Source of the DNA: Bolinopsis microptera
Lineage: Eukaryota; Ctenophora; Tentaculata; Lobata; Bolinopsidae
Assembly: GCF_026151205.1 (NCBI RefSeq)
Contig: NC_087076.1
Span: forward strand, 12,447,675-12,511,674
Direction of reading: 5' to 3'
Length of the DNA stretch: 64,000 nucleotides
The notes under the pieces were generated by a model. The model was given only the letters and a program-made list of their open reading frames with translations. It ran no database searches and was not told where the DNA came from. The position numbers were made by a program, and so were the translations under genes. This document shows positions 2,909-59,266 of this stretch, piece after piece (the first letter of the stretch is position 1; each line of letters opens with the position of its first letter).

Positions 2909-2910
2909 CG

Positions 2911-3744: not shown

Positions 3745-3747
3745 GGG

Positions 3748-4030
3748 GCTAGGTGGCTGAGTGGTTAGAGCTTCCGCCTTTTGCGCAGAAGGTCCAGGGT
3801 TCGAATGCCAGTGTCATCTAATCTAGGGAGATAGCTAAGGATCCGTTGGATCTATCCGAAGTTACACATTTGTGTAATGTATCCTCGGTTGACTCAGCCG
3901 AATGATCGGAAGACCGTGATTCAGGGTTAAATGAGGAGGGGTCCTGCCAAGAAATCAACTAGAATCTTCTTCAGTACATCTACATTGTAGTGTACTTTAA
4001 ACATACTACTATGCTATACTATACTATTTC
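3748..4030 (+). mobile_element. tRNA-derived SINE candidate
   Basis: The 5' part looks like a tRNA: an A-box-like TGGCTGAGTGG at about 3760, then a B-box-like GGTTCGAATGC about 40 nt later, the spacing expected of an internal RNA polymerase III promoter. The acceptor stem does not close convincingly and the B box is imperfect, so I do not call a functional tRNA. About 170 nt of non-tRNA sequence follows, ending in a run of TACTATGCTATACTATACTA, which could be the 3' tail. This is the usual SINE layout (tRNA head, unrelated body, simple tail). A second copy would be needed to prove it. Confidence 0.5.
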
Positions 4031-6300: not shown

Positions 6301-6305
6301 TCCGC

Positions 6306-6575
6306 ACTTCCCCCGCACTTGTGTGAATTCAACATGAAGTTACATGATTCTTACCAACTATAGCTCCCCCGCACTTTTGTGAATTCAACATGAAGTTACC
6401 GGATCCTTACCAACTATAGCTCCCCCGCACTTTTGTGAATTCAACATGAAGTTACCGGATCCTTACCAACTATAGCTCCCCCGCACTTGTGTGAATTCAA
6501 CATGAAGTTACCGGATCAACTATAGCTCACCCGCACTTTTGTGAATTCAACATGAAGTTACCGGATCCTTAACTG
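6306..6575. repeat. 56-bp tandem repeat, five copies
   Basis: The segment from CCCCCGCACTT through GAATTCAACATGAAGTT is repeated with GAATTC at 6325, 6381, 6437, 6493 and 6543. The spacing is exactly 56 bp three times, then 50 bp because the last interval has lost a few bases. Copies differ by only a few substitutions, implying recent expansion. It is non-coding as far as I can see. Confidence 0.93.
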
Positions 6576-6914
6576 CTTCCCTATTAACAGCAGGCCAAGA
6601 ACCCCACACTTGTACAGTTTGACTACCAGTCCGGCAATCAATGATCTCCCCTCTTGTTGGAACGATGTGCGCCTTACAGTGACTTGTACATAAAATCGGG
6701 ACGAAGTTCAATAATAGGTGGGTCGGTGTGACAGTGCCCACCCAAAGCATAGAACGGCTCGATACCCTGTCTACTTCAAGATACTGCAGTCCTTTGCGTG
6801 TTCTATCTTCCCCTGCCTCAACCCTTGCACTGCTCACCTCGCTATTTGGACTTTTGCCAGCCGTTTAGTAGTATATCACCTTCATTTTCTAGCTAGCTGT
6901 GTTAATTTTGTTCT

Positions 6915-7140
6915 TATATTAGGACGCAATGAAACTAACGGACCACGATGTATGGGGACTTGCCTGTGCCACCCCATGGCAACATTAAAATATATCGACT
7001 CTGTTACATTGTTTCCTGTTAACACAAAACTCCGTTACAAATTGAACTTGGATCTGGCAATACTTTACTATTGCATTCCAAAACCAGCCGATCGTATTTA
7101 TTCTCTTCTTGCATTCCATTATAAAAGTTGTAGTTAAACT
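6915..7140 (-). mobile_element. LINE 3' fragment (minus orientation)
   Basis: The stretch beginning TATTAGGACGCAATGAAACT and running through the CCACGATGTATGGGGACTTG segment to the AATACTTTACTA segment is the reverse complement of about 31700-31850. That second copy continues from the decayed 3' end of a CR1-like reverse transcriptase ORF. This is therefore most likely the 3' untranslated part of a LINE family, inserted in the opposite orientation just upstream of the proprotein convertase gene. Confidence 0.65.
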
Positions 7141-7194
7141 TAAACTTAAATTTAGTATTCCGGTAATTACTAACATATATTGCTCTTACAGGTT

Positions 7195-10100
7195 ATGAAT
7201 AGGCTAGAATTGTCGATATTGCTGTTATTAAATGTATTTGTATCTACTGTATGGTCGATGGGTTGGCTCATTGACCTAAAACACGGCGGCCACAGGGCTG
7301 CTAACAAAATCGCCAATAAATATAACCTAGTTAATAGAGGAAATGTAAGTAAATTCTACATTTTATACGCTGATCATATTTTTGTTTCTCGTCTATCATT
7401 TAAAATTATTCGTCTAAACTTTAAATAGAGCCGGCAGTTCGATTACTGTTCTAATTTTGCCGTTTAGATCATCATCAATATGTTTTGACAAAATGTCCAT
7501 ATTTTTAAATAGTCAGAATTTAATTAACTGTCCTAGTAAACTTAAAGGAGGAGAAAGTTAACTTTTGGACAACTTTTAAAGACCATCTAAAAGACCCCAT
7601 CTTAGAATTTGATCATGTTTCAGAGAGGTGGTCTACGACACATATTCCTCCTCGAAACGAAGTCTGACGACTATAGAAGTAGACGGAGAAGGGATACATC
7701 TCTTCCCTACAGAAGTAGAGATGAAATGATTCATGACATAACAAATCAGATTTTCCACGAAAAAAATGTGGTATTTGCCGAGGTTAACAGGCAGAACCTG
7801 AGCAGAAAAGTAAGAGGAATATACCATCCTGACTCGAGAAGACCGGGAGGAGGGTCCAGTAGACACACGAGAGGAGCGTTCAATCCTGACGAGTGCTGTG
7901 ATTTTAACGATCCGGAGTATAATAAGCAGTGGTATTATGTAAGTAGGTTCTTTCTTTCTGGACAGTACTTACTTACTTACTTGTACTTGAAAAGGTCTCC
8001 TCCTAGTCGTTGGAGTGGCCTGCACCACATAGTAACTCCTTTTTTGCTGCATCCTCCCGGACACATGACAAATAGTTTTTCCGAGGTCTACCTCTTGACC
8101 TTCTGGACAGAGAACCTGGACAGAGAACCTTTAAAACCTTAGTTATTAGTGCCATTAGTGTTGACCCCTTTAATTGCCATGTTGTCGAGAATCCTCGCGG
8201 TGACATACTATACAAATTAATACGGTTATCGGGTTATAGGTTCAGAATCAAGCTAAATAAAATAGTCTCTTGTCGCACTTATTCCAGGGTGTCTTATAAT
8301 TTCAGCCACAGTAACTGTTAGAACTACACGACCAGCTGAACAGATATATTCCTTAAATGTACCAAAAGGGGATGGAAATAATAGGTGCTCATCCAGGATT
8401 ATTCTAGAACGCGAGCCGTTTGAACTTAGATGAATTGATCTTCCCTTTTTAAGGATTATAAATTATCTTTTCATCCTATAATAAGCGACGTCATCATGGT
8501 GACGTCATAATACTAGTGACGTCATAATACTAGTGACGTCATCATGATGACGTCATCATAGTGACGTCATAAAACTAGTGACGTCATCATAGTGACGTCA
8601 TAATACTAGTGACGTCATAATACTAGTGACGTCATAATACTAGTGACGTCATAATACTAGTGACGTCATAATACTAGTGACGTCATAATACTAGCTACAT
8701 TTACAGCGCAGGTAATCCCATAGCCGTGACAGGGTGCAAACATTCAATTTTCCATCTCATTGGAGATAGGATATCGCTTAGCACGGTCCTAGGACAGAGA
8801 CCTACCATAAAAAACATGATTAGATTTGACCAAAGCCGGTAACATGCTTTATCGTATCACCAAAACCGAGCTCATTCGTAGTGGTACGGCGTAAGGGAAT
8901 TACAACTAGTAAGGGGATTACAACTAGGCTAGCTGTATTATTATACCCTCTCTCTGATAACCAGTTTACACTAACAGAACTATCTTGCGGCCAGGCCTGA
9001 TTTCCTGTCGTTACGGTAAAGACATCACCGGACGTTCAGGACAGATTAAACTTGTTACCGAACACAGAGCCAAATTATCAACTAATAAATGTTGTGGCGG
9101 AAGGACAAATTATGGTCATAAAAACTAGCTGTCAATATCTAGTTATTCCTGAGATTTTCTTACAATTCTTTGGTTTTATTTCAGCGTAACAATCTGAGGC
9201 TTGACATGAACATTGAGGGAGCGTGGAAACAAGGGATTACTGGAAGAGGAGTTAAAGTTACAATTCTAGATGACGGTGGGTAGGTTACAAAAACAGTAAC
9301 ATTTACTATGGAACATTTGACAGTAACTTAAAGTCTGTTCAGATTTCTGGAACATCAGCTTTTTTAAATACCTACAAAATTATAATTTTAAAATGATAAA
9401 TAAAGTAAATAAATAAGTATCTAGATAATTCAACTAAAGCAGAGATTCTTTAGCCTATAGAGAGCATGACGTCATGCAAGGGCCCATATCTACTGTAATT
9501 GTTTAGTGTTATACGTTATTACCCTACCATTTTTTTAATTATATATATATATCAGTAAATTACTTAAACAATAAACTTGTGGCATGTTGCTGACTGTCCA
9601 TTTAAACCACAGGTGTAGAAAGAACGCACGATGACCTGAAGGATAACTGGGACGCAGATGCCAGCTATGATTTCAACGATAACGATTTGGATCCTTCCCC
9701 TAGAATGACTGACGACTCAGAGAATATGTAAGTGGTAGAAATCTTTTCACGTTTATCATTCCTATTTTTAACACTATCCTTAACCATCAACGTAACGCAT
9801 CGAGGAATCCGATTCATTCTAAAGTAAGTAAGGTCAAAGTGTTTGACCCTGAATGATTGTTAAGCTGTTAATGTTAAATTCTTTGATGTAGTATCATCAG
9901 GACTCTGGTCCCCAATTACTGGAACCAAATGATGCCTACTGAAGAGACTTTTAATGCCAAGATTTTGAAAGTCAAAGGGTATATTCAATCTTCATTTATG
10001 GGTCACTTTAAATGGGCAGCAATAGTGATAAGCACTGTGCATTTACTTTGCAATTTTTTAAATTAGCAGATAAGGGCACCTTTAAAAGCATCTCATTAAC

Positions 10101-13100
10101 CACGTACGGTAGTAGATTGTGGTTAAACTTTAAGAATAAATCGGAGCATCTTAAAAGTTTAAGATGCTCCGATTGAATGACCATTCAAAAATACCTCTGG
10201 GACTTTAATACCAATCTAACCGCCAACTTAGCCTTTCAAAGCACCATTTATTCTGCGTTACCTCAACTTGAGCAATTTATATCCGATAGCTTTTAAAGTA
10301 AAAATAGCATGTGCTTGCCATGGTTTTTCGTAAAAACAAAATCCGCGTGGCGCGTGCATAATAGAATGCATATAAGAATAGTGTTACTTTAAATAACAAC
10401 CAGATTGCCTGTGGAGCAGTGTTTTAAAAATATGTGTCTGGAATGATGGAAGATTCTCCATTTAGTCGAGCAATACACACTAACTTGTTAAGCCTGCTAA
10501 TATTTAACTAAAGCTGCATACTTTATTGTTAAATAAAGAGGTAACTACTTTTAAACTGGGACAATTGAATATAAATAGAGCCGCGTTTTCCATTTATAAA
10601 GCACATACAACTCATTAAAAGAGACGTTTTTCCGGTTGAATGGGATAAATTAAATGTTATATAGGTTTAAACACCCAGCAGTTTATTTATTCTAACGAAA
10701 TGTTTTGTCGGCAACGAGGGTAGCCATGCTAAACTATGACTAATATGTGTGATGGAAGCCTCCAACACTTTCACTTTCACTTTCACTTTCACTTGGAGAC
10801 TAATAGCTATTAGTTATCTCATGTACAGGCACGGAACAAGGTGTGCAGGACAAGTTGCAGCCTCGGCTAACAACACTAAATGTGGGGTGGGGGCCGCTTT
10901 CGAAGCAAACATAGGAGGTACGTTTCAGCTGCAACAATTTTATAATAATGATGAAGAATGCCGTTTATGTTAACGGCTTCATTTTTACTAACAAACTATG
11001 CAGATCTGTATGTTCAGATGTTACAAATGCGCTAAAATATGTAAAAAGCAGTCCATCTATATCTGCTCCTTTAGAAACCATATTGTAACAATTCAGGTAT
11101 TAGGATGCTGGATGGTAGAATATCCGACGAGGTAGAGTGTGATTCCATCGGCTTTAAACGAAACTACATTGATATCTACAGCATGTCTTGGGGGCCAGAC
11201 GATGATGGGAAAACTGTGGACGGTCCAGGAAGTTGCACCAAGACTGCTCTTAAGGAAGGTGCAAGAAAGGTACTTTTTTTAATACTCAAATTGAAATGAG
11301 ATAATGTAGAATTTGTGTTACTAACTTTATAGTGATAAGTCGTTTTTGCCAAGTTAGTGAGAATAATTCTCCGAATAAGGGAGCTATATTTAACTTGTTG
11401 AAAAGTATCATCAAAGGACTGCTAAGTAAAAACTCTCAGGGAAGACACGGCAAAGGTTCCATCTTCGTTTGGGCGAGCGGCAACGGCGGGAAAGCAAACG
11501 ACGACTGCAACCTAGACGGTTACGTGTCGAGTATCTACACCATCGCCATTAGTGCCATCTCATCGAGCGGGCTCTCGCCTTGGTACAGTGAGTCCTGTGC
11601 CTGCACCCTCGCCTCCGCTTACTCGTCCGGGTTTGGAAATGAGGATAAGATCCTGACGACAGATGTCCACAATACTTGCACTGATGAACACACAGGCACC
11701 TCCGCTGCAGCACCACTAGCAGTGGGCGTGCTCGCTCTAGTTCTTCAGGCTAAGTGAGATATTTAGCCTTAGAAGTGTTGTTTTACGATTAAACTTACTG
11801 GATATTTCATCGTAAGACAAGGGTACCCAATCTTAACCACAATTTGAGGATTAATATCGGTCAAAATTTGTGAATATTTCCGAGCTTTAGAATGAGGGGT
11901 TTAATCCATATAACCTGCAGTCCCGAACTGACGTGGAGGGATATGCAACACTTGATAGTGCGGACAGCCAGCAGGGTCTCCAATGACAGGGACAGTCAAT
12001 GGACTCGGAACGGAGCCGGTCACGAGTTTCATCCTAAACTCGGCTTCGGAGTTCTTGGTAATTTCAAATCATAAAATTTAGACTAGCACGTTTGATTGGA
12101 ACTTTGATATGCGCGAAGCAGTCAAACTGTGAAAATATGAGGTTAAATTATTGACTAACTGGGCCCACTTTGCTTCAGACGCAACAAAGATGGTAAACAT
12201 GGCGCGAAACTGGACGACAGTTCCCCAGCAGCGAAAGTGCATGGCCCTCAAAGTCAACCACACAAAGTAAGCATAAATCTCATCCTACGTTCAACCTTGT
12301 CCACGCATGGAACTAGGGTTGACAAATTTTAAAACGTTGACAGTTCTCCAACTATCGTCCCCAGGGTGGTACCACCGCTACGGATACTCAACATGAGGAC
12401 AACCATCCACCCCGAAGACTGCATGGACAAGTCGACTGGCAGATTTGGTAAGGACCACCTGAGCAAGCTCGAGCACGTGCAACTGTTCCTGACGATAAGT
12501 ACGCCCACCAGGGGGGACCTCTTGCTAAAGTTAGTTTCTCCAAGTGGAACAACCAGCAAACTTCTCAGCATGAGGCCTGAAGACAACGCAGAATCCAGTT
12601 CCAGGTACGTAGCACTTCGTTGATCAGAATGAATTTTCTTTATTAGATTTTGATTTGAAATTTAACAAACGGAGACAGCATGGTATAATCCTTTAGACAA
12701 CCCGACACTCTACAGGTTCTACAATAACAGGTCTGGCTTTAAGAATTGGGGCTTTATGACTGTTAATTTTTGGGACGAAGAACCCTATGGATGGTGGCAA
12801 TTACAGATCATCAATGCGAATGGAAACCCAAACCATAAACATACTCAGTGAGTACTAAACATAGATGAATAGGACTGGGAATTTATACCGATTACCTCGT
12901 AAGTTTTTATCATGGAACATGTTTACGATCAAGTCTTGAATTAAAACCAAATACAAGCCAAAATAAAGTACAGTTTGATGAAATCTAACATTTAAGACAC
13001 CATGTACGTTCTAGTTACAGAAGGAAAATTTCAGGATGCAACCAACCAAGCTTAAGAAGTTCAAGCTGATATTCTGGGGCTCCGGGGGAACATCCAGTTC

Positions 13101-13680
13101 CCACGAACAAGAAGCAGATGAGGACGAAGAGGAAGAGCTGGATGAGATAGTTGATCAGGACGAAGATAATGATAATGTGAGTTTTCAGATCGTGCAACAC
13201 ATAAATGAGATAGGAGATAAGTGGAGTGGTGAGCACGGAGATAGCAGCCATGACATGGTTATCCCTTACAACAAGGGTTGAGACGAGTGTTGTTAATTCT
13301 CGGGGATATTATTGACAGATTTGCGACAATTCTTCATTCAATTCTTTACAGACTCTCTCTTTAACTATCTTTGTATCATGTACCTTGCTCATATAAACTC
13401 TCCTTCTCTTGGGACCGGACAAAGCATGCAGTATCTAACTTTTATGAGTAACTCAGTTTCGTAAGTGTTACAATTCTTTCTTGACACGTGACGACATTAT
13501 GCCTTCACGTGACCCCTTCTTCAAGTTCAAAGCACAAGTCTGAAATGATCCAACTTTTAGAGTGGTGAAGTGGAGATGGACACAGACGAAACTCTAGTTC
13601 ACAGACTGGACACCATGGTATCCCGCAGCCCTACCACCGAGCCTCCGATGGAGCTGCAAGACATTCACTTCAGACCCTAA
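7195..13680 (+). CDS. kexin/furin-type proprotein convertase (PCSK-like)
   Basis: A calcium-dependent subtilisin-like endoprotease that would cut secretory proproteins after basic residues. Thirteen phase-consistent exons: 7195-7344, 7624-7938, 9185-9275, 9613-9727, 10829-10917, 11097-11269, 11440-11753, 11921-12057, 12179-12266, 12365-12604, 12716-12847, 13035-13176, 13561-13680; about 701 aa. Visible in order: signal peptide (residues 1-20), inhibitory prodomain with basic sites (RRRR; SRKVR), S8 catalytic domain with Asp184 (LDDG), His225 (HGTRCAG), oxyanion Asn326 (ASGNGG) and Ser399 (GTSAAAP), then a P domain ending near [10 protein letters not shown]. The oxyanion residue is Asn, unlike PCSK2 (Asp). 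There is no transmembrane helix or Cys-rich region, so the product looks soluble like PCSK1, but orthology is undecided. An AG lies 3 nt before the ATG. The tail is acidic and can end in two ways (see findings). Confidence 0.93.
7979..8215 (-). mobile_element. possible retroelement remnant in PCSK intron 2
   Basis: The minus strand encodes a short open frame containing [19 protein letters not shown], resembling the basic RRxRGRPR...W segment common near the C terminus of non-LTR retrotransposon reverse transcriptases. It is too short and isolated to assign to a family. It may be a small decayed insertion within intron 2. Confidence 0.3.
8486..8692. repeat. CRE palindrome array (TGACGTCA), about 13 copies
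   Basis: Thirteen GACGTCA sites, twelve of them full TGACGTCA octamers, are packed into about 200 bp, mostly in a 16-bp unit TGACGTCATAATACTAG. TGACGTCA is the consensus site of CREB/ATF bZIP factors, so an array in intron 2 of a convertase gene could act as an enhancer. The same octamer also appears in ones and twos elsewhere (about 3645, 3716, 14420, 14435, 22425, 22443), which argues that it may equally be a satellite or transposon-derived motif. Confidence 0.85.
10139..10174. other. perfect 17-bp hairpin in PCSK intron 4
   Basis: AATCGGAGCATCTTAAA is followed after 2 nt by its exact reverse complement. It lies in the long intron between the exons carrying the catalytic Asp and His. No flanking transposon ends were recognised. 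Confidence 0.9.
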
Positions 13681-15198
13681 CGAACTTAGACTGGGAATAC
13701 CTTATCGGCCCTAGTTTGAGTGGACTTAAATTTGGCCAGCCCCTTTCTCTGAACGGGCCTTTTTTTGAAAAGGTGTCATTAGATGCTGCACTTTTACTTG
13801 ATTCGCTGAAGTTACAAATTCAGATGAACCGAGTAAGTGGAGTAAACAGTCATTTTGAAACATAATCTATTAATAATTATATAATTAATGTAATTATTTC
13901 CATTTACACATAGAATTAGATTCAAACTATAGCAATATATTTAGCAACTTTGATAGAGCCTATTTAACACCTACTGTCTAAACGGCCTTATTATTAGTAA
14001 ATGGGCTACACGGCCCTTATTAAGACCTTCCAAATACTCAAATAAGGGTCGATAAGGTGGCAGAACCTCTCCACAACCTAACAGACGGCACCTGAAGCCC
14101 GATCTCAGGTGACAGACGGCATGTCATTGTCACCTGGAGCTCGACCATATGACTAGCCTTGTCAAGCTGGACCCAGATGATGCCGACCTCCCGATCAGAG
14201 CTACCAGAGGACATCGTCTGAACAGAAAACATTAAAACCTAACAGTATAGGCATCTCAACTAAAGACTAACCGTGCTACGAACATTTTCATTGCGCTAAA
14301 CTACTGCCTGTCGTGTATACTGTATAGCAACTTAAGATTTCTAAGAAATTACCATTATACTAATTGTTGCCTAAAATAGGATATATTTTGAATATTCAAC
14401 GACTGTTTTCGTCATGATTCTGACGTCATCATCATGACGTCATCAACCTGTTTTTGTCATCCCATTAGTCTGTGTTTTTAGATAATTATTTTATACGAGT
14501 TCCGGTTGTTATGAGCGAGTACATGGTATGTCAGAACGATTTATTTTTGTATATTTATTTGGATGGTGATGTTGCTGCCAGCTAAGGAAACATGAGTAAC
14601 TATGTTTGCCTGGCTGATGTATAACGTTATAGCCGACTTATTTCAATTATGTGGGAGGCAAATTTATTAAGCTAACCCGATGTAGTGTCCGTGCGATGAA
14701 TTTATATTCATGTAGGGTGCTTTCATTCATCTGTTCATGCAGATTTCATTTGTTTTGTATATCGAGCAATCTTTTTAAGTAGGAATTTGCTGTTTGTATT
14801 CTGATGTTCACACATTTTGGTTCGAATATCCCTGATATTTTGTATGTCCCATTTCTTGATCTAGAGACCGTGTATTGTTCTGAGGTAATTAGAAAAGATT
14901 TTAGAAATGACAAGATTTTGTTACACGGAATATAATCGTCTAGACCATTGCACGGGCCTCTTTGCAAAGAGCAGACAGTAAAACTCCAGGATAGACTACA
15001 ACGCAATTAGAATATATCACTAAATGTGAGGTAAAGATAAGCCTATAGATTGTTGTCTAGTTTTTTAGCCGGGATAGAATGGCCCCCTGTACCTCAAAGA
15101 GGAGGGTTTGCGTCACTTGGTACTGCCTGCCTCCGTTTCTTCGTCATGATACCGCACGATACGGGCTGTCTCTGAACACTGCGGAGCATTTCTTGTCT
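13681..15198. other. convergent intergenic region, no gene seen
   Basis: This lies between the 3' ends of the convertase gene (+) and FMC1 (-), so it should hold both 3' UTRs. Two TGACGTCA palindromes sit at about 14420 and 14435. The open frames at 14038-14232 and 14746-15006 show no domain and I do not treat them as genes. Confidence 0.4.
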
Positions 15199-22800: not shown

Positions 22801-25800
22801 TGAAGGTTCATTAAGATTTAGATTCGTAATTGCATTACAATTGTGGCTAGAATATTTTATTCAGACAGATAGGTATCAGTAAAATTTTCTAATCATGCTT
22901 TCAAATTTGATTAAATCTATAATAAAATTATCACATATACATTTGACCACAACATCCATATCATGGTAGTGGCACCGTGCTAGTATCTTTTATCGCCAGA
23001 CAAGCAGGACAATGAATTAATCTGATTGATCCGTTTTCAAATGCAACATGATACGTAAACTCGCCGCTTTTCCATACATTTCACGCACAATGTATGAATG
23101 AATTTGAAAAAAAGATACGAACTTAATAAATGGTTGTTCTATATATTATAAGGTTATAGAATTAGCTGAATTAATTGTTATTGCCGAGGTAACTTTATCT
23201 TCTGGAGTTTCTAACATACATCTTGTAAAAAATAAAAAATAAAAGCGAGCAGACCAGATTCCCGGTATATTTGCATTGTAAAACGGAAGTAATTATCATT
23301 TCCTGTTGTTTGGGAAGGGTCTTGCAGAGGTCCACTTTACCGAATGGGTTTTGTCAATTCTCTTTGACTAATGTCATACTCAGTAAGTCAAAAAGCAAAA
23401 CTCTTCCTTAATGCTGAATTTAATCGTTTCAAATCCTGAAAAAGATTCCTGTGTTGGAAATAGTCAGAAATACGTGCCGATATAACAAAGAGCTTAAATA
23501 AAAACATTGAATGTGCGGGTAAACAAACTCAAGGAAATCACGAATTTAGAGCGTAATAAGAATACCTTCCAACGGATTTACTAAGTGAGCGGAGTTCGTA
23601 TAATTAGAGCGTAATATTTGCCGTATGGTTTAAATAAGACTTATATAAGGAATGCAAATTTTAGATTTCAATAAAAATCAAAACGGAATAAATTGAAGAT
23701 AATAAAACAGAAACAGAAAGTTTCAAATATTACCGTTCTATAATTTGCGTCCCCAAAACATTGCTCTTTATCGATTTTAATGTAAAATATAAACAATTAT
23801 AAACTATAAAAAGAACGGAGCTCAAAATCCAAGGATGAACCAGAGAGTACTTAAATCGCAAAATGAATTTTAAATAACTCAAAAAGGTACTAAATTAATC
23901 GACAATACTTATGAAGGATCGCTAGAAAAATTTTCCGTAGATTTTCAAAATGAAAATACTGAAGATAAATTTTCAGATTATGAATAAATACCTTAATGTA
24001 AAAACTAAAATTATACTTTCAAATCGTTTCAAACAATGTCTCCTTGTATGACGTTTCAAGTTTATGTAGTCAAAAATTATAAAATAATAAAGCTATAAAA
24101 ATATGAAACCGGGTCGGAAATCTGAGATTTTGAACTGAGGTCTTTAATTACGGGCTAAATGATGCAAAGCGCATCCCACTAATGATGTATGTAATGTATC
24201 CGACATCTATGCAAAACAGGATACTGTAAAACTGATTATAACATCTGAAACGGAAAACTTTTTTGATATTTGGTCAACGTCTAGACGCCCTGAAAAATTT
24301 CGGATCTGTAACTCAATTTTAACATGGTTTTTAAGGCACCTGAATATGGCGATTTTGGGTTTTTTACCGAATTTCGTATAACAGTGCTGGCGAGTATTTT
24401 CAATTTTATGCAAATTTCTTAAAAATCTCAACATAACTATTTTTTATTCCTGTTATCTTTGACATCAAATTAGAATGTTTTGAACTAAAAATAAATCTGC
24501 TGAACGACTTCCGATGAGTCTTAATGCCTGAAAAACTCCTACCGGAGGCGGTGGCCTTCGGCCGCCGCCTCCGGCCGGAGTGCACGCTTCGCGTGCACGA
24601 AAGAGGCTTGTAACGTGTACCAAAGGGGGTATAATAGTAAAGGGGGTATAATAGTAAAGGGGGTACATAGTATACCCACAATAAATGCACCGGTCGTGCT
24701 TGCCAGCACTGTGATAATACAGTGAAACAAATTTTAGTGAAACAAATTTACATATTACATAATTTACATATAGGTATTATACATATATAATACCTGATAT
24801 TTGCTGTTGAGAGTTTTGACACAATGCCGTCTCCGACTGTCCCAAAGTCTGACCGTCCCATCATCACTGCCACTACAGATCATTGTGGGGTTGTCCGACA
24901 CGTCACAACTGTTTACAAACGACTGGTGACCTTTAAACCGCCTCACTCGTACACCTAAACAGACAAAGATTATTATTATAATGATGTTCATGAAAGTAGA
25001 TGTTGATATATTTATTTGTTCGTGTAATTAACTTGAGCTACCTATAACATCAGAAGACTGTAATGAAGTGATATTTCATGATATTAGTAAAGGAGGTGGT
25101 CCGCAGATTGCGTGATGACCGTGAAAATGCCTACTTCTAAACCTCTCAATAGGTTCAATAGGTAGGATGACCGTGAAAATGCCTACTTCTAAACCCCTCA
25201 ATAGGTTCAATAGGTAGGATGACCGTGAAAATGCCTACTTCTAAACCTACCAATAGGTTCAATAGGTAGGATGACCGTGAAAATGCCTACTTCTAAACCC
25301 CTCAATAGGTTCAATAGGTAGGATGACCTTGAAAATGCCTACTTCTAAACCCCTCAATAGGTTCAATAGTAGGATGACCGTGAAAATGCCTACTTCTAAA
25401 CCTCTCAATAGACTCTAACGTTACTTACCAGCCTCTAGATCCCACATTGCCATACTCTTGTCAGTTGAAGCAGAAACTAAATGCGTCCCGTCCTTCGTAA
25501 AACATATTTGAGAAATGGAGCCGGTGTGCCCTGTGAATATAATTGTTACTAATAATAGGTTGATTAGAAAGCGAGACATAAATTACATACTTGTTGTCTA
25601 AAATTCCTATATTTTGGTAACTTTGCCCCTTTTTAATAGACATCCCATTTTGTGATGTTTTAAACATAATTTGAACAGTTGACATATCTCTTTACATGAT
25701 AATGAGATTCCATCTGACCTGGTAAGCAAGCAATGTTCTCACATTCACCAAAAACATTCCACAAGAATATCTGCCTATCAAACCCGGCACTGGCTAAGAT

Positions 25801-47524: not shown

Positions 47525-48257
47525 TTAATTTAAAGGTAATTCGATAATTAGCATGTTAGTTAGATTTCAGAAATTTGGTTCAAGCACTTCGTGGTGTTTG
47601 ACGGTAGACATCACGGGCCGTGATATGGTTTGAAATTTTGTTGGGTGACTGAAACTTTTCGGTTGAGAATGTCAGACGTTTTCGGTGAAATTATGTTATA
47701 TTTTTGGATGAGCCATTTTCTATTGTTTATATTTTTTGTAACCGATGTTATTTGTTTAAATGTTGCGATGATAATTTTTAATGCTAAACTTGTTATGTTA
47801 TTATTTGGGTCCGGGCTTCGACAATTATAAAAATGTACTGCCATTAAATTTGTTTTAAATTAAAAAGATGCCCGACTTTTTCATTGTTTTCGTACACTTG
47901 AAATTAAAAACATTGCCTGTCAGATATCTCATTAATTAGTTTATATATCTCATTAATTAGTTAATATATCGGGGGGGGGGGGGGTGTCACGTCCGTCTAT
48001 GTCCGCTTGTCTCATAGAATCCAAAAAGGACAGGACATAGGCGGACATAGGCGGACATAGACGGACATAGGCGGACATAGACGGACATAAGCGGACATTA
48101 ATGGACACCTAAATTGCTAAATAAAATGTTCAATTTTTGCTGTTAAATAGGGGATCATGTTTTTTGTCCGTTCGGTACCCTATATTTTCAAAACGGACAA
48201 AAAATAGAGCGGACAAAAATGGACAAAAACGGACAAAAATGGAAATAACATTTAGAT

Positions 48258-50418
48258 GCTTCCTCCTCCTACTCTTCCTCCTCCTCCCCCTGGGTCTTCC
48301 TGATCTTCCTCAGTCCTCTTCCTCCTCCCCTCCTCAGTCCTCCTCCTACTCCTCCTCCTCGTTCTCAGTCCTCCTCCTCCTCCTGAGTCCTCCTCCTGGG
48401 TCCTCCTCCTGCACTGGGTCCTCCTCCTCCTCTTCATCCTCCTCCTCTTCCTCCTCAGTCCTCAGTCCTCCTCAGTCCTCCTCATCCTTCTCCTCAGTCC
48501 TCCATCCTCTTCCTCAGTCCTCCCCCAGTCCCCCTCCTCCTCCTCCTATTCAGTCCTCCCCCTCCTCCTTCTCAGTCCTCCTCAGTCCTCCTCCTCCTCC
48601 TCCTCCTCCTCTTCCCTCTCAGTCATCCTCCTCAGCCATCCTCCTCAGTCCTCCTCAGTCCTCCTCAGTCCTCCTCCTCAGTCCTCCTCCTCCTGGGTCC
48701 TCCTCCTCCTCTTCATCCTCCTCCTCTTCCTCCTCGGTCCTCAGTCCTCCTCCTCCTGGGTCCTCCTCCTCATCCTTCTCATCAGTCCTCCTCCTCCCCA
48801 GTCCTCTCCCAGTCCCCCTCATTCTCCTCCTCCTATTCAGTCCTCCTCCTCCTCCTCCTCCTCAGTCCTCCTTCTCATTTCTCCTAAGTCCTCCTCCTGA
48901 GTCCTCCTCCTCTTCCTTCTAAGTCCTCCTCCTGAGTCCTCCTCCTCCTCCCTCTCAGTCATCCTCCTCAGTCATCCTCCTCAGTCATCCTCCTCAGCGA
49001 TCCTCCCCAGCCATCCTCCTCAGCCATCCTCCTCAGTACTCCTCAGTCCTCCTCCTTCTCAGTCATCGTCAGTCCTCCTCCTCAGTCCTCCTCAGTCCTC
49101 CTTCTCCTCCTGGGTCCTCCTCCTCCTCCTCCTGGGTCTTCCTGATCCTCCCCAGTCCTCTTCCTCCTCCCCTCCTCAGTCCTCCTCCTACTCTTCCTCC
49201 TCGTCCTCAGTCCTCCTCATCAGTCATCAACAGTTCTCCTCCTCCCCAGTCCTCCTTCTCCTCCTGGGGCCTTTTCCTGGGTCCTCCTCCTGGGTCCTCC
49301 TCCTCCTCCTCCTCCTGGGTCCTCCTGGGTCTTCCTGATCCTCCCCAGTCCTCTTCCTCCTCCCCTCCTCAGTCCTCCTCCTACTCTTCCTCCTCGTCCT
49401 CACTCCTCAGTCCTCCTCATCAGTCCTCAACAGTTCTCCTCCTCCCCAGTCCTCCTCCTCCTGGGGCCTTTTCCTGGGTCCTCCTCCTGGGTCCTCCTCC
49501 TCCTCCTCCTGGGTCCTCCTGGGTCTTCCTGATCCTCCCCAGTCCTCTTCCTCCTCCCCTCCTCAGTCCTCCTCCTACTCTTCCTCCTCCTCCTCAGTCC
49601 TCCTCATCAGTCCTCAACAGTTCTCCTCCTCCCCAGTCCTCCTCCTCCTCCTGGGGCCTTTTCCTGGGTCCCCTTCCTGGGTCCTCCTCCTCCTGGGTCC
49701 TCCTTCTCCTCCTCAGTCCTTCTCCTCCTCCTCCTCAGTCCTCTTCCTCCTCTTCCTCCTCCTCCTCCCTCTCAGTCATCCTCCTCAGCCATCCTCCTCA
49801 GTCCTCCTCCTTCTCAGTCCTCCTCCTGAGTCCTCCTCCTCCTGAGTCATCCTCCTCAGTCCTCTTCCTCCTCCCCTCCTCAGTCCTCCTCCTACTCCTC
49901 CTCCTCGTCCTCAGTCCTCCTCCTCCTCCTGAGTCCTCCTCCTGGGTCCTCCTCCTGCACTAGGTCCTCCTCCTCCTCTTCATCCTCCTCCTCAGTCCTC
50001 AGTCCTCCTCAGTCCTCATCCTTCTCCTCAGTCCTCCATCCTCTTCCTCAGTCCTGGGTCTTCCTGATCCTTCTTCCTCCTCCCCTCCTCAGTCCTCCTC
50101 CTACTCCTCCTCCTCGTCCTCAGTCCTCCTCCTCCTCCTGAGTCCTCCTCCTGGGTCCTCCTCCTGCACTGGGTCCTCCTCCTCCTCTTCATCCTCCTCC
50201 TCTTCCTCCTCAGTCCTCAGTCCTTCTCAGTCCTCATCCTTCTCCTCAGTCCTCCATCCTCTTCCTCAGTCCTGGGTCTTCCTGATCCTTCTCCTCCTCC
50301 TCAGTCATCCTCCTCAGTCATCCTCCTCAGTCATCCTCCTCAGCCATCCTCCTCAGCCATCCTTCTTAGCCATCCTCCTCAGTACTCTTCAGTACTCTTC
50401 AGTACTCTTCAGTCCTCA
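48258..50418. repeat. 2.2-kb polypyrimidine (TCC-rich) satellite
   Basis: Almost only C and T on the plus strand, with units such as TCCTCCTCAGTCC, TCCTCCTGGGTCC and TCCTCATCAGTCC. Blocks of about 200 bp recur (GGGTCTTCCTGATCCTCCCC at about 49133, 49328 and 49522), indicating higher-order amplification. The complementary strand is G-rich (GGAGGAGGA), so triplex (H-DNA) or G-quadruplex formation is plausible. The serine/proline-rich frame at 48137-48922 is a by-product. Confidence 0.95.
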
Positions 50419-52416: not shown

Positions 52417-53210
52417 ATGAACCAGCCGATATCAGGAGACGAGTTATTGAACTTCTTCAAGACGCTAGACGATTACACGCCCACCCTGCCGGACTCCCTT
52501 ACAGCACACTATCTCTCTCAGGCAGGACTCCACACCTCCGATCCCAGGATTGTGAGTACCTCTGCTGCACGTGGGCGCTGTTTGCACGTGGGCGCTGTTT
52601 TATGTAGGCTTCGATGTTTGTCAGCCCCGTGAAGTAGTTTCTACTGAGCTGAGTTTCACTTTTGGTATTTCATATTATATGTTTCATCTTCCTCGATTTT
52701 ATTAATGAGCAAGATGGGCAGTGCTCACTTATATTCTCCAACAACAGGCCGAACAGTAGATCATGTTAAATTATATCTATATTTCTAACATTTCGTTTAC
52801 TTTTCCTTCGCTAAATATTTGTAACCACGGAACTTTCTTCTCAATTTCAGATAAGACTAGTGTCACTAGCAGCTCAGAAGTAACTTTCTCAATTTCAGAT
52901 AAGACTAGTGTCACTAGCAGCTCAGAAGTAACTTTCTCAATTTCAGATAAGACTAGTGTTACTAGCAGCTCAGAAGTAACTTTCTCAATTTCAGATAAGA
53001 CTAGTGTCACTAGCAGCTCAGAAGTTCATCACAGAGGTAGCTTCAGATGCTCTGACACACTCTCAAATGCGGGGTAACCCTGCTGGTGGGTCCAGTGCTT
53101 CCGGCAATAAGAAAAGTAAGGAAAAGAAGAATTGTCTGAGGATGGAGGATTTGCAGCCTGCACTGGCCGATATGGGCATTCAAGTCAAGAAACCAGCGTA
53201 TTACATGTGA
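52417..53210 (+). CDS. TAF10: TAF10, histone-fold subunit of TFIID/SAGA
   Basis: Histone-fold TAF shared by TFIID and SAGA in the nucleus. Two exons, 52417-52551 and 52995-53210, joined in phase 0 within DPRI-IRLVSLAAQKF, exactly where the human protein reads DPRIIRLISLAAQKF. 116 aa: essentially the conserved C-terminal domain (DYTPTLPDSLTAHYLSQAG, SGNKKSKEKKNCLRMEDLQPAL, ending VKKPAYYM); the long disordered N terminus of vertebrate TAF10 is absent. The intron ends in a tandem array in which the acceptor plus the first 30 nt of exon 2 occur four times. Only the last acceptor (AG at 52993-52994) leads to the full domain. Confidence 0.93.
52844..53024 (+). repeat. 48-bp repeat carrying the TAF10 exon 2 acceptor, four copies
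   Basis: Each copy holds TTCTCAATTTCAG followed by the exon 2 start ATAAGACTAGTG and CAGCTCAGAAG. Exon-side starts are at 52851, 52899, 52947 and 52995, exactly 48 bp apart. The first three continue AAG-TAA, an in-frame stop; the fourth continues AAG-TTC into the real exon. Copies differ by a single T/C change in the third. Confidence 0.97.
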
Positions 53211-53719
53211 TCTGGAGTGAAGTTTCGTGTGATTCATGTGATTTCACGTGATCTGGCCGCGATTACATTTCGTTTAGTCGTTTGTGTTGAAGAAAGCTGG
53301 AGTTGTCAATCCTGTTAAGACGGTTCAGTTTTAGAAAAACAAATCATCTGTTGTTGTTGTTACTGTACGTGACGTCTCACTGTTGCTTTGTTTAATCACT
53401 GATCAATGACAGTTCTATGTTCCCATACTAGTGTACCTCAAGTAGATTGGTATTTAGATAACAATGAGTTAATACCTGATCACTTCAAGACAGTTTTCAG
53501 CTTTTTAGTGCTTCCTGTAAAGTGGTTTGTTTGTTCTTTTTTAAGGTGGCGAGTTCGGCTTCATTTGGCCTTTTGGGTTCCTAAGGTGACACATTTTTAA
53601 TAGAAATTAAAGTTCAATTTATGATATGAAAAAAAAACTCAGTTCATTCAATTATTTCGAAAATAATTCTGTAAATTAAGATTGGTTCTATTTTATTCAA
53701 TTGGAATACTTGCTGTTTT
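53211..53719. other. spacer, no gene seen
   Basis: Contains the 3' end of the TAF10 transcript and sequence up to the MITE. The frame at 53406-53600 shows no domain. Confidence 0.35.
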
Positions 53720-53724
53720 CTCAA

Positions 53725-54151
53725 GGGCAGCTGGTCAGCCGGCACAATGTCACTCCTCTTAAACGACATTATTAGGTAATAAACGACATTATAATCTCTT
53801 AATGACAATATTACAAGATAAACGGCATTATATTCTGTTAATGACAATATTACGAGATAAACGACATTATATTCTGTTAATGACAATATTACAAGATAAA
53901 CGACATTATATTCTGTTAATGACAATATTACAAGATAAACGACATTATATTCTGTTAAAATGACAATTATATTGCAAGATAAACGACATTAATATTCTGT
54001 TAATGACAATATTACAAGATAAACGACATTTTATTCTGTTAATGACAATATTACGAGATAAACGACATTTTAATCTCTTATCAAAATTTAAACGACATTA
54101 TTGCCAAAAGCGACGATATTCGTGGGAATTGCGCCGGCTGACCAGCTGCCC
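53725..54151. mobile_element. 427-bp MITE with internal 39-bp minisatellite
   Basis: Terminal inverted repeats GGGCAGCTGGTCAGCCGGC (53725) and its complement ending at 54151 match over 24 bp with one difference. They are flanked by a 5-bp target duplication CTCAA (53720-53724 and 54152-54156). The interior is about eight copies of a 39-bp unit (TAATGACAATATTACAAGAT, then AAACGACATTATATTCTGT). There is no coding capacity. It is inserted just upstream of DENR. Confidence 0.9.
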
Positions 54152-54276
54152 CTCAACTTAAATAATGAAGATGGCTTGCAACCCTGAAATAAAACATTTC
54201 TCTCTCTAACTGAAAACAGCACTGATATATTCGATAACGTCCTTTTCAATTCCCTATAATTATGATGTTTACAAAT

Positions 54277-54354
54277 AACATTCCACTGCTAACATTCCAC
54301 TTGTTAACATTCCACTGCTAACATTCCACTGCTAACATTCCACTTGCTTGCAGT
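54277..54354 (+). repeat. 14-bp branch-point-like repeat before the DENR start
   Basis: Units of AACATTCCACTGCT start at 54277, 54291, 54306, 54320 and 54334; one is 15 bp. The junctions create TGCTAAC or TGTTAAC, which fit the metazoan branch-point consensus (yUnAy). The last unit runs directly into CACTTGCTTGCAG-T-ATG, an acceptor 1 nt before the DENR start codon. Confidence 0.85.
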
Positions 54355-55487
54355 ATGGCCGTGACAGAGTACCCAGTAAAAGTGAACTACTGCGGAGTTT
54401 GCTCCCTTCCCCCAGAGTACTGTGAACATGGGCCACTGTTTGACAGGTGCAAGGAATGGATGGAGGACAACTTACCTGATGACTTTGCCAGACTCATCCT
54501 CAATAAAACTCAGGTAACTAGGTTACAGTTACTAGGTGATACACTTTGCCAGACTCATCCTCAATAAAACTCAGGTAACTAGGTTACAGTTACTAGGTGA
54601 TACACTTTGCCAGACTCATTCTCAATAAAACTCAGGTTATTAGGAAAACACAAATAAAAACATCTTTGTGCATTTGAATGCTATTTGGGTTTTTATATAG
54701 TGGAAGGGGCCTTGATAACTTTGGACACTTTGGCCTACATTCGCAACGTACCATGCATGGCCATGGTACGTTTTTATTAGCAATTAGCATGCTATGGTAA
54801 GAGTAAGTTCGACAATCGTATTAATAACAAGAACAGCTTTAAAAATGGATTAAATCCCACTCATCCTGCTTAGGTGTGGTGCAAATGAAATTATTGTTCA
54901 ATTAACCAACAATATGAACAGTCCACCTTTTTAAAGGCCTTGTCAAACACGTTTTGCACCTTAGACGCCATCCTAAAATAACTCAAGAATATGATCGGCA
55001 AAACAGGAGAAAAAACAATTTAATTTTCTATCAGTTACACTTGCAGCCTGATTCCTGAGGTTATATATTGAAAATAGGTGTTATATATTGGGTATATTGA
55101 AAATAGGTGCTGAAAATAGTCATACTATTTCAGGAGGAGTTAGAAGCAATGTCTCTGAACAACAGTAAAAAGAAACAAACGAGAGGAGGTAAAGCTATGA
55201 AGAACATCACTAAAAAGCAAGAACTACCAAGACAGGTCATAGTGGGTCGGTCCATGAGAGCTCGGAAGAAGTACGTGACCCTGGTCAGGGGACTCAAGAC
55301 GTGCGACATGAACCTCAAGAAATGCGGCAAAGCGTTCGGTCAGAAGTTTGCGTGCGGATCGTCCGTGACGGGAGACGATGAGATCACGGTTCAGGGCGAC
55401 GTAGTGGACGAGATGATGGACTTCATTGTGGAAGAGCTGGGTATTGAGGAGGACCTAGTGGTGGACGGGGGTGATATTAAAGATTGA
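54355..55487 (+). CDS. DENR: density-regulated protein, translation reinitiation factor
   Basis: DENR pairs with MCT-1 to recycle 40S subunits and promote reinitiation after uORFs (cytosol). Two exons, 54355-54513 and 55134-55487, phase 0, 170 aa versus 198 in human. N-terminal zinc-binding region: YCGVCSLPPEYCEHGP, then CKEWMEDNLPDDF. A linker follows that is basic (NNSKKKQTRGGKAMKN), then the SUI1/eIF1-like domain from about residue 90 (RKKYVTLVRGLKTCDMNLKK, FACGSSVTGDDEITVQGD). The 3' end of exon 1 with its donor is present three times in tandem. Several genes in this window have short upstream frames (ATGGAATGA before NDUFA9, ATGCAATAA at 58300), which are the kind of target DENR acts on elsewhere. 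Confidence 0.95.
54483..54650 (+). repeat. 61-bp repeat carrying the DENR exon 1 donor, three copies
   Basis: CTTTGCCAGACTCAT starts at 54483, 54544 and 54605. Each copy holds the last 31 nt of exon 1, the donor CAG-GTAACT (CAG-GTTATT in the third) and 30 nt of intron. Reading through the first donor reaches CAA-TAA at about 54567, so use of the second donor would put a stop in the message. Confidence 0.97.
54651..55133 (+). other. rest of DENR intron 1
   Basis: Non-coding. It has a short direct repeat near its end (GGTGTTATATATTGGGTATA region, TTGAAAATAGGTG twice at about 55067 and 55098), shortly before the acceptor CATACTATTTCAG. Confidence 0.5.
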
Positions 55488-56207
55488 TCATTTGTTTTTG
55501 GGGCGTTTTGTAAAGTGGTTGTTTTGTAGTGCACAATTCGCGGGAAGGATTTGAATGGCTTGGAATTTTGTGGTCATTTAACTTATTGTAGAATAAAAGC
55601 TTGTGGAAAGAATTTTGAACAGTTGAGTGCTGAGCGAATTTGTTAGTTACGTTCGGATGTTAAGACTTCGATTTACTGAAAGTTTTTTCATGTGTCAATT
55701 GGTTTTGTTCATTTAAACTTTCGGTGAAAGTATCAGAATTATGAGAGTAAGTTTGTCTGACAAACGTTCAACAGTATCTTGAATCTTCATCTGATTTAGT
55801 TTTTTACACGCACGAGGCTGCAATATGCTTGAATAATGTACGATTTCTGTCTTTTTGTCTTGGTAAATTGAAAGTTGATAAGTAGTTTTATTATCATGAT
55901 CCGCATCATATCAGTCATATAAACAAAATAATATTTGGGATATAGTAATTTAAATTTGATAGATTTTGATTCTATTGTTGTAATTTGTCTCATTGGTAAA
56001 TATGAAGATTGCTGTTCCGTTGGAAAATTTTATTTATTATCAATGCTCGATTAGTTACTGCTACAGCTGTTTCCAATTAACAAAATTATCGTATATTCTC
56101 AGACAATACAATCTCACTTTTTGATCACCACATTAAAGTATTCTAACTGTACCGATTGCACAAAGTATCACATTCTGTACTGAACTTGACCTCTTTTCCC
56201 ATTTTAG
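55488..56207. other. spacer between DENR and C2H2 gene
   Basis: 3' UTR and spacer, no gene recognised. It ends in a strong pyrimidine tract and acceptor (CCTCTTTTCCCATTTTAG) directly abutting the next ATG. Confidence 0.45.
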
Positions 56208-57269
56208 ATGATGGACATGGAGCAGGACACCTCACCTCTGGACAACGGCGCTAAAGCAGTCCCCGATAAAGTGGTGAAAGATGAAAAGGAGGTGACGGCT
56301 GGTGAGGTTGAGAACGATCAAAACACCAACAACACCGACGAACTGGATGAAGAAAAGGAAGATGTTAAGACAGACGATAAGAGGGAAGAGGAAGAGGAGG
56401 ATGAGGAAGAGGACGAGGAATGTGTAGAAATGGAGGGAGATGATCAGCAGTACAACATGGACCAGGAAGTTGGACGCGAGATCACGCTGGATGATCTCAA
56501 GGACATGGATTACAAAACAGAGATGAACACGACGAAAGAGTACCAGCCGTATGATGAGAGCATGGTGGAGGGTGAGTCACTCGGAGAAGAGGACGATGAG
56601 GAGGACGACTTTAATGAGGAGAAGATAGGCGCCCGCACCATTAACTATACTGGACCTGAGACAGAGCAGGAAATGACAACTGATGCGCCTGGTAAAGCAG
56701 AGAAGGTCAAACCTAGCGATACGGAGAAACCTGCTCCCTACCCAACTAAAAAGAGAATCACATACAAGTGTTCTGTGTGCAAACATCGGACACTCCACAA
56801 ACCCGACATGATCAACCACATGAAGGTCCACAAGACTCCTAAGGTCACCAAGAACTACCGTTGTTCAGTTTGCAATTACAGCTCCACCGATAGAAATGTC
56901 CTGGTGAAGCACATTGCTGTCCACAACGGTGGGAAACCTTACCAGTGTAGATCCTGTAACTTCGAGACAACCCGCAGTTCCCACTTAGTAGAACACTGCA
57001 AAATCCACTCCGGTGACAAACCCCACAAATGTCCGCTGTGCGACTACAGCTCTGCACGCAAGTCCGACTTAACTCGGCACAATCGCATCCACACTGGCGA
57101 AAACCTCTACAGATGTCAGCACTGCGACTACACCACCATCCGAAACTCGGATCTTGTGAGGCACACTCGCATCCACACTGGGGAGAACCTCTTCCGCTGC
57201 AAATATTGCGACTACAAGAGTGTCCGTAACTCGGATCTCATTCGACACACTCGCACTCATACTAAGTGA
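56208..57269 (+). CDS. C2H2 zinc finger protein with acidic N terminus, 353 aa
   Basis: Uninterrupted frame. Residues 1-150 are very acidic (EEEEEDEEEDEECVEMEGDD). Six C2H2 fingers follow from about residue 187: CSVCKHRTLHKP, CSVCNYSSTDRN, CRSCNFETTRSS, CPLCDYSSARKS, CQHCDYTTIRNS and CKYCDYKSVRNS. The linkers are of the TGEKP type but read TGENLYR / TGENLFR, shared with the next gene. The last three fingers are nearly identical, with helix residues R(K/N)SDLxRH repeated, predicting recognition of a repeated short DNA motif. The ATG directly follows an AG, so the CDS has no 5' leader of its own if trans-spliced. Confidence 0.9.
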   Translation: MMDMEQDTSPLDNGAKAVPDKVVKDEKEVTAGEVENDQNTNNTDELDEEKEDVKTDDKREEEEEDEEEDEECVEMEGDDQQYNMDQEVGREITLDDLKDMDYKTEMNTTKEYQPYDESMVEGESLGEEDDEEDDFNEEKIGARTINYTGPETEQEMTTDAPGKAEKVKPSDTEKPAPYPTKKRITYKCSVCKHRTLHKPDMINHMKVHKTPKVTKNYRCSVCNYSSTDRNVLVKHIAVHNGGKPYQCRSCNFETTRSSHLVEHCKIHSGDKPHKCPLCDYSSARKSDLTRHNRIHTGENLYRCQHCDYTTIRNSDLVRHTRIHTGENLFRCKYCDYKSVRNSDLIRHTRTHTK

Positions 57270-58312
57270 AATAGTGCTCTACTCTTATTGCAGCTGTGTG
57301 AGAATCATTTCTCGCGCTCTAGCCGTTATCCTCATCGCCTCGGACTATCATTTTCAGCGGATATATTGATTTTTTGAAACTTTATCAATACAAATTTAAA
57401 TTGGGAAAAAATGCCCAAAATTGATGTAAAAGTGTTATAGACTCCCCGATATAGTCTTAAATAATTATACATACTATCAGCTTTTGGTATGTAGTGTGGA
57501 GTATACTAGTGATCTGGCTAATTCTTGTTTAGTTGTTTGGCAGCTGTGTGGTAATTAATAACTACAGTACAGTGAAGCAATAAATTGGTATAACTTTCAT
57601 TTGGTTTAAATCCGTATTTTAATTGCATGTTGTCTGTTTACGTGGCCAAGTCACGTTTGATTTAAGTTTATGACATGACATCTGCTGTTTGCTGTTTCTT
57701 TAATTTAATTCCTTGAAACATTCAACTTGAAAATCGTTGCCAATCCAATTATATCTCATCATATCAGTTGCCTCAAATTTTCCTTCGCTCCATTTTCATG
57801 TAATTAACCGTTTATACTTCATCAATCATCATGATACCATGCGACTTTGGCCTATGATCGTTCTAGTTTGAGTCAGTAAAATAAACCCGCTGTTTCAAGA
57901 TGATGAACTATTCTTTTATTTTTAGCAATTAAAATTATCTTTTAATCTACAATTATAATTATATAAATGGTATGTTATGAATACTATATTCCCATTTCCC
58001 CGCCAGTACTCTTGAATAGTGATAATACAGCTACCGTGTGAGTGATTACAGTAACAGTTTCTTGGAGCCCACATAGTATGTATTTATTATGTGTTAAAGT
58101 TATATTATTAAGAACATTGTGTTTTATTGCTCATATCGACATTAATAGACTGCTTTCACTGTTCAGCTCCGATCTGATAAATCAAATAAATGATATAAAC
58201 TTCTAAAGGGGATGCCCCGCGAATTTCTTATTAAAATACCAGTATACATTTAACAAATACTAGTATACAATATACATCTAACATTAACCTGCTCCCAGAA
58301 TGCAATAAAGCG
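57270..58312. other. spacer between two C2H2 paralogues
   Basis: 3' UTR and spacer, no gene recognised. A minimal upstream frame ATGCAATAA begins at about 58300, 12 nt before the next start codon. Confidence 0.45.
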
Positions 58313-59266
58313 ATGGAAGTGAGAATTCCCCAAAGTGCACCATTAGACCCCCACCACCACCTTCACTCGGCTCAGGTGGCACCATTAGACCCCCACCACC
58401 ACCTTCACTCGGCCCGGGTGGTGGAAGAAGAGTTCTTGGAAGAAGAAGAAATACTAAAGGGAGATGAGGAGATAATAGAAGAAGAGCAGATGGTGCATCT
58501 TGAGGATGTACTGGATCAGATTGGATCAGAAGACGATTCTGCTGAACTCCAGATGGAAGAGCAGAACGTCTCGTACGAAGAGATGCCCGAGAAAAAGGAA
58601 TTCCAATGTGAGTACTGCAACTATTCCACAAACCGTCGGAGTGATCTAACAAGACACGTGCGGGGTCACACCGGGGAGAACTTATTCCACTGTGTGAAGT
58701 GTGAATACAAGACAGCTCGTAAATCAGACCTGAGACGGCACCATCTGCTTCACGCGGGAGAGAAACCTTTCAAGTGTGGGGTATGTAACTACACCACATC
58801 CCGCAAGACGGTGCTGCTCAAACACATGCACATCCACACTGCTAACCTGCCCCGCTGTAGAGTCATCTTAGTTCAGGTCACTAAAGAGGGACAAAAAGTG
58901 ATCAACAACAACGCCCTGGCCGACCTTCCTTCCTCTTCTACCGTGGAGACCACCACCTCTTCCTCATCATCCCCCAAGAAACGCAGAACCTCCAGTGCTT
59001 CTGTCAAAATGTACTCGTGCGACAAATGCGACTTTGTGGCCGCTTGTCGCAAGAACTACCATGAGCACCGCCTGAGCCATGGCAAGGAGCAGAAGTGGAA
59101 ATGTCCAATGTGTGGCTATATGACAATCAGGAAATCCGACATGACAAGGCATTTCAACATCCACATTGACAACGTCTTCAAATGCAACCTGTGCGAGTAT
59201 AAAACAGTGAGACACTCGGACTTCGTCAGACATAGCAAGACCCATAATAAACACAAATACCAATAA
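58313..59266 (+). CDS. C2H2 zinc finger protein paralogue, 317 aa
   Basis: Uninterrupted frame. The N terminus carries two copies of a 14-residue unit APLDPHHHLHSAQV / APLDPHHHLHSARV, from a 42-bp in-frame DNA duplication at about 58337-58420. An acidic stretch follows (EEEFLEEEEILKGDEEII). Three C2H2 fingers (CEYCNYSTNRRS, CVKCEYKTARKS, CGVCNYTTSRKT), a basic/serine linker (SSSSSPKKRRTSSASVK), then three more (CDKCDFVAACRK, CPMCGYMTIRKS, CNLCEYKTVRHS). The style of fingers and the TGENLF linker show it is a tandem paralogue of the preceding gene. Confidence 0.9.
   Translation: MEVRIPQSAPLDPHHHLHSAQVAPLDPHHHLHSARVVEEEFLEEEEILKGDEEIIEEEQMVHLEDVLDQIGSEDDSAELQMEEQNVSYEEMPEKKEFQCEYCNYSTNRRSDLTRHVRGHTGENLFHCVKCEYKTARKSDLRRHHLLHAGEKPFKCGVCNYTTSRKTVLLKHMHIHTANLPRCRVILVQVTKEGQKVINNNALADLPSSSTVETTTSSSSSPKKRRTSSASVKMYSCDKCDFVAACRKNYHEHRLSHGKEQKWKCPMCGYMTIRKSDMTRHFNIHIDNVFKCNLCEYKTVRHSDFVRHSKTHNKHKYQ

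Follow-up and report, generated by a model that had tools for sequence, protein, structure and literature searches.

A tandemly repeated splice acceptor in the TAF10 gene of the ctenophore Bolinopsis microptera resembles the mirage minisatellites of lancelets

The TAF10 gene of Bolinopsis microptera carries a 48-bp tandem repeat in which a splice acceptor and the start of exon 2 occur four times. An earlier note on this DNA had described the unit, and its account is borne out: TRF places the repeat at 52838–53025, with 3.9 copies, 98% matches, and a score of 369, and the four acceptor positions are exactly those that the note gave. We suggest, with a probability of about 0.78, that the array is a mirage minisatellite, neutral or mildly leaky, which reflects a repeat-prone genome and belongs to a recurrent class. 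Positions are those of the window, the whole stretch of 64,000 nucleotides that was analysed, and the features are collected in the table.

Mirages are minisatellites at 3′ or 5′ splice sites that have been reported from lancelets, in Adh/Adh3, TnC, the globins BflGb6 and BflGb9, and PGBD5 (PMC3087553, PMC3902484). Like the TAF10 array, they consist of tandem copies of an intron/exon boundary, several of them similar, with the authentic boundary alongside. Their units are 10–160 bp long, with AG/GT signals in many copies, and the TAF10 array is alike in this. The published mirages are from lancelets, whereas the arrays described here are in a ctenophore, in the genes TAF10, DENR, HIRA, and RALGAPB. 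TAF10 is a new gene for the mirage class. No case of ctenophore minisatellites at splice sites, or of ctenophore mirages, was found in the open-licence literature searched.

Features of the TAF10 and DENR genes in the window
Feature	Position	Strand	Evidence
TAF10 exon 1 (MNQPIS...SDPRI), donor ATT/GTGAGT at 52552	52417–52551	+	translation, Pfam TAF10, genome profile search
Branch-point-like sites TTCTAAC (A at 52788) and TTGTAAC (A at 52824)	52783–52825	+	motif match only
Repeat copy 1, acceptor end 52850, IRLVSLAAQK-stop	52838–52885	+	TRF, reading frame
Repeat copy 2, acceptor end 52898, IRLVSLAAQK-stop	52886–52933	+	TRF, reading frame
Repeat copy 3, acceptor end 52946, C→T, IRLVLLAAQK-stop	52934–52981	+	TRF, reading frame
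Repeat copy 4, acceptor end 52994, continues into TAF10 histone fold	52982–53025	+	TRF, reading frame
TAF10 exon 2 (IRLVSLAAQKFITE...PAYYM, stop)	52995–53210	+	translation, Pfam, genome profile search
DENR exon 1 (DENR_N)	54355–54513	+	Pfam PF21023, 3e-20
61-bp × 2.7 array with three copies of the DENR exon-1 donor	54482–54644	+	TRF
DENR exon 2 (SUI1 domain)	55134–55487	+	Pfam PF01253, 2.3e-19

Counted from 52838, every copy takes in 13 nt of the intron end, AG included, and some 31 nt of exon 2. The repeat unit spans the intron/exon boundary, as that boundary is placed by the reading frame. Copies 1–3 read ...CAG-AAG-TAA, while copy 4 reads AAG-TTC and goes on into the histone fold, as had been noted before. 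The authentic boundary is at the outer end of the array, with copy 4 alone leading into TAF10. The frame had also been described as identical after each acceptor; this holds for copies 1, 2, and 4, but the base change in copy 3 replaces the serine of the peptide by leucine. Over the 42 positions compared, the copies show 0–1 differences, and this one base in copy 3 is the only deviation. Around the acceptor, 20 intron and 3 exon bases are common to copies 2, 3, and 4, and copy 1 deviates from these only upstream of its acceptor, where it has its own left flank. With copies this alike (a single differing base in 42 positions, in copy 3), the expansion is either recent or homogenised.

Exon 1 joined to exon 2 from acceptor 4 encodes a 116-aa TAF10, which matches Pfam PF03540 at 2.9e-37. 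In a structure-sequence search, this product matches a solved TFIID subunit 10, which we take to be the human protein, at 1.3e-34. The intron has a length of 299–443 nt, depending on the acceptor chosen, and exon 2 appears to be the last exon. In the 264.65-Mb assembly (232 contigs), the TAF10 profile matches two places, which are both exons of the present gene, and a probe of 521 bp from the array region matches one place. Thus, neither a second TAF10 nor a second haplotype was found in the assembly with the profile and the probe, where a missing match is not proof of absence. Since no other TAF10 gene was found, a functional message presumably must be made from this one.

The published genome is a wtdbg2 assembly polished with pilon using Illumina reads (PMC10232365), and long noisy reads might have produced an error in the copy number. 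However, the 188 bp of the array are far below long-read length, copy 3 has a private substitution and copy 1 a private left flank, and similar arrays are found elsewhere in the genome. We therefore regard an assembly error as very improbable.

The array would have arisen when a short segment that happened to hold the 3′ end of TAF10 intron 1 together with the beginning of exon 2 was duplicated in tandem, and this duplication would later have expanded to the four near-identical copies. Judging from the reading frame, splicing to the last acceptor would give normal TAF10. In productive messages, copies 1–3 would then act as intron, and any use of them would lead to a 55-residue fragment. The number of copies probably varies between animals; in lancelets, the BflGb6 mirage is reported to have six copies in one haplotype and three in another (PMC3087553).

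What would the upstream acceptors produce? Acceptors 1, 2, and 3 each give a computed product of 55 residues ending in LAAQK, in place of the 116 residues from acceptor 4, so the earlier note was correct that the proximal acceptors lead to truncated reading frames. It had further proposed that each upstream copy could act as a 29-nt cryptic exon. The donor-like sites are indeed present, GAA/GTAACT matching the consensus at six of nine positions, but only 19 nt separate GTAACT from the next acceptor. Such an exon must therefore in practice skip one or two copies, with an intron of 67 or 115 nt. Its use leads to an immediate stop and again to 55 residues, the stop ending 4 nt past the last junction in all six combinations.

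Poison exons, in the scheme of alternative splicing coupled to nonsense-mediated decay (AS-NMD), are cases in which an alternative splice choice brings in an early stop. By the exon-junction rule, NMD needs the last exon junction to follow the stop by more than about 50 nt. The TAF10 array is like a poison exon in its early stop, but the position of the stop does not accord with the rule: it is within the last exon, or 4 nt after the last junction. Exon-junction NMD is therefore not expected for the TAF10 products, and the idea that their messages are NMD-prone is not supported, although a long-3′UTR form of NMD may act on them. Furthermore, when duplications of 14–60 nt of intron and 6–60 nt of exon around the TAF10 acceptor were simulated, 2133 of 2585 truncated or shifted the frame. 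A poisoned inner copy is thus the ordinary outcome of such a duplication, and the stop is not evidence of design.

The contexts of the four acceptors differ. The AG-free zone is 89 nt before acceptor 1 and 16 nt before acceptors 2–4. The branch-point-like motifs TTGTAAC and TTCTAAC match 26 and 62 nt upstream of acceptor 1, respectively, while AAGTAAC sits 15 nt from acceptors 2–4. Acceptor 1 thus combines the widest AG-free zone with a favourably placed branch-point-like site, and it is not to be presumed that acceptor 4 alone is used. Upstream 3′ sites were found to be preferred by Reed and Maniatis, as summarised in PMC9225289, where the upstream of two comparable 3′ sites is described as preferred under intron definition; the data of that paper on comparable sites of internal exons indicate a weaker upstream preference under exon definition. 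Together, the proximity preference and the length of the AG-free zone suggest real use of the unproductive upstream acceptors, which we consider a live possibility. Acceptor 4 is nevertheless a plausible working site in the present genome, since other acceptors are laid out alike or shorter. The single-copy acceptor deduced for a WD40 exon on the minus strand of the window has a 16-nt AG-free zone with a TAGTAAC 15 nt from the AG, and for the exon-2 acceptor of DENR the AG-free zone measures 12 nt. An RNA structure that hides the upstream acceptors was considered and rejected, with a z score of −0.01 and 94 of 200 shuffles folding at least as well; no structured RNA in the window matched Rfam at the gathering score.

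A regulatory role of the upstream acceptors is possible, and its one positive support is the favourable context of acceptor 1. On such an account, substantial and possibly regulated use of these acceptors would send messages into the 55-residue frame and so set the supply of a TFIID/SAGA subunit. The longest AG-free zone and the TTGTAAC 26 nt upstream both belong to acceptor 1, intron proximity favours upstream 3′ sites (PMC9225289), and acceptors 1–3 share one common truncation. We consider this account unlikely, however. Decay through an exon junction is not expected for its products, most of the simulated duplications would have a like effect, and unrelated genes show equal anatomy, as described below. 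In lancelets, moreover, mirages reportedly leave regular splicing undisturbed, as Adh3 data and globin RT-PCR suggest (PMC3087553, PMC3902484).

The gene directly downstream of TAF10 is DENR, identified by its DENR_N and SUI1 domains. Here it is the donor of exon 1 that is triplicated, mirroring the TAF10 acceptor case. The donors after 54513, 54574, and 54635 match the consensus at 8/9, 8/9, and 7/9 positions, respectively. The first alone gives the full 170-residue protein, and the second and third give 70 residues. The stop lies 7 nt before the junction for the second donor and 68 nt for the third. Because of this 68-nt distance, the third DENR donor could yield an exon-junction NMD substrate, unlike the TAF10 products. 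A further 14/29-bp array at 54276–54344 repeats CTAACATT-like motifs, which are branch-point-like, and stops a few bases short of the TTGCAG in front of the DENR ATG.

To describe how often such arrays occur, we counted tandem repeats with a period of 25–150, at least 85% matches, and a TRF score of at least 80. A sample of 20 stretches of 7 kb at preset positions of the genome (140 kb) contains 22 of them, or 1.57 per 10 kb, the same density as in the window, with 10 in 64 kb. The 22 sampled arrays have a median length of about 170 bases and a mean of about 390. For each of the 32 arrays in sample and window, flanking ORFs of 50 aa or longer were taken, four at most; two arrays (in L014 and L022) had none. 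The Pfam search took 10 flanking ORFs, 8 from the sample and 2 from the window, of which 7 were without a family, and one was also searched against PDB. All splice sites used here are placed by reading frames, and for HIRA, RALGAPB, and the WD40 exon these are the frames of the ORFs.

In the sample, at least 2 of the 22 arrays straddle the deduced acceptor of an identified gene (HIRA and RALGAPB); this is a minimum figure, as the searches covered a part of the flanking ORFs. Two of the 10 arrays in the window straddle a splice site, namely the TAF10 acceptor and the DENR donor. A third window array, at 25114–25411 by the WD40 exon, was not counted; it begins about 17 bp inside the intron, and the donor is not repeated. 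The 108-bp unit of the HIRA array (L009:414–610) repeats TATTTTCAG some 30 nt upstream of the ATG that opens an 881-residue ORF, and is presumed to duplicate a 5′UTR acceptor. This ORF is uninterrupted and has an array within about 30 bp on either side, the other being L009:3308–3547. The RALGAPB array (L023:6552–6640, minus strand) has a 43-bp unit that doubles the deduced acceptor CACCAG/GTC. The adjoining exon matches solved RalGAP-beta at 6e-10 in the PDB search, and the first, inner copy, if used, leads to a stop in all three phases.

Thus, the arrays recur on several genes, TAF10, DENR, HIRA, and RALGAPB, as is characteristic of mirages. With 19,000 genes (18,972 are reported for Mnemiopsis; PMC11797021) and five introns assumed for each, this assumed density of splice sites leads to an expectation of about 3–6 chance overlaps among 22 arrays. 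We therefore claim recurrence, and not enrichment at splice sites. By hand arithmetic, 2 in 140 kb scales to about 3,800 genome-wide, with a Poisson range of roughly 460–13,700. As a control, kinase exons gave 3 arrays in 112,971 bases (30 loci among the 136 matches listed), sparser than in the sample; these loci are a poor control for splice sites because they are mostly long single-frame kinases. One of the 3, L051:3068–3176, is a likely splice-site array and was excluded from the count, and its two putative exons matched no solved structure at E values up to 1. At L051:2880–3180, there are compound duplications of an exon-like stretch and of an apparent exon of 18 or 19 nt, the latter together with its acceptor and GTAAG donor.

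The occurrence of the same kind of array on DENR, HIRA, and RALGAPB makes a repeat-prone genome more likely than a special switch at TAF10. Of the two options that the earlier note had left side by side, neutral duplication is therefore the better reading, given this recurrence and the precedent of the lancelet mirages. Recurrence also bears on whether the animal carried a segregating, partly damaging allele, in which a recent expansion reduces the output of TAF10 while the other haplotype masks the effect. The copies differ at one base in 42, consistent with a recent or homogenised expansion, copy number differs among lancelet mirage haplotypes, and the B. microptera assembly was cleared of haplotigs according to PMC10232365. 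The locus is at one place in the assembly, and hence another haplotype is not visible there. With DENR, HIRA, and RALGAPB affected too, however, four independent damaging alleles in one animal would be needed, and we consider this quite improbable.

Repeats at splice sites are known from other systems. In human duplicated genes, internal tandem repeats at exon–intron boundaries have on average 30-bp units in four copies, and are reported to change splicing and create new introns in some cases (PMC2812944). Like the TAF10 array, they are minisatellite expansions at an exon–intron boundary, but they are described for paralogues from segmental duplications with transcript support, while the TAF10 array is in a single gene and is read from genomic sequence. 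Some Drosophila introns seemingly arose by tandem duplication (PMC2891723), and intron gain via tandem duplication of AG/GT proto-splice sites is described in potato (PMC4974935). The TAF10 array shares with these cases a tandem duplication that carries splice signals. Intron gain from an exon-internal AG/GT does not describe TAF10, where an existing boundary is duplicated, the gap is 19 nt, and the donor matches at 6/9 positions. Intronic minisatellites in connection with alternative splicing are treated in C. elegans in PMC4039745.

Returning to the reading of the array as a mirage minisatellite, these observations extend the phenomenon from lancelets to a comb jelly and suggest that it is not rare there. 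Ctenophores are argued to be the sister group of all other animals (PMC10232365). Each array is a natural competition between identical splice sites, of which one outer site alone makes protein. A bolder proposal, which we hold to be doubtful, is that ctenophore genomes have thousands of mirages in ordinary genes and that their splicing routinely passes identical inner sites for the outermost, contrary to the preferences for proximity and for the first AG that are known from elsewhere. If this were true, TAF10 would be a clean natural test, acceptor 1 looking the best equipped, and leakage there would set TFIID/SAGA dosage. Iso-Seq and RNA-seq reads of B. microptera are stated to exist (PMC10232365), and existing long-read transcripts could show which splice site is chosen, and on what basis.

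TAF10, DENR, and two zinc-finger ORFs are arranged head to tail on one strand at 52417–59263. An acceptor-like TTGCAG is located 1 nt before the DENR ATG, and TTTTAG directly before the ATG of the first zinc-finger ORF. The Hormiphora spliced leader is printed in PMC8527503; its 3′ end, followed by GT, had four matches, all within about 83 kb of contig C13, and the controls had none. Trans-splicing or polycistronic transcription of the TAF10–DENR–zinc-finger row is possible from this arrangement. Elsewhere in the window, a TCC/TCAG-rich polypyrimidine tract of about 2 kb is on the plus strand at 48261–50354, with a GC skew of −0.6 in 48001–50000, and a 17-bp unit is repeated in 117 copies at 923–2909 with 97% matches (TRF).
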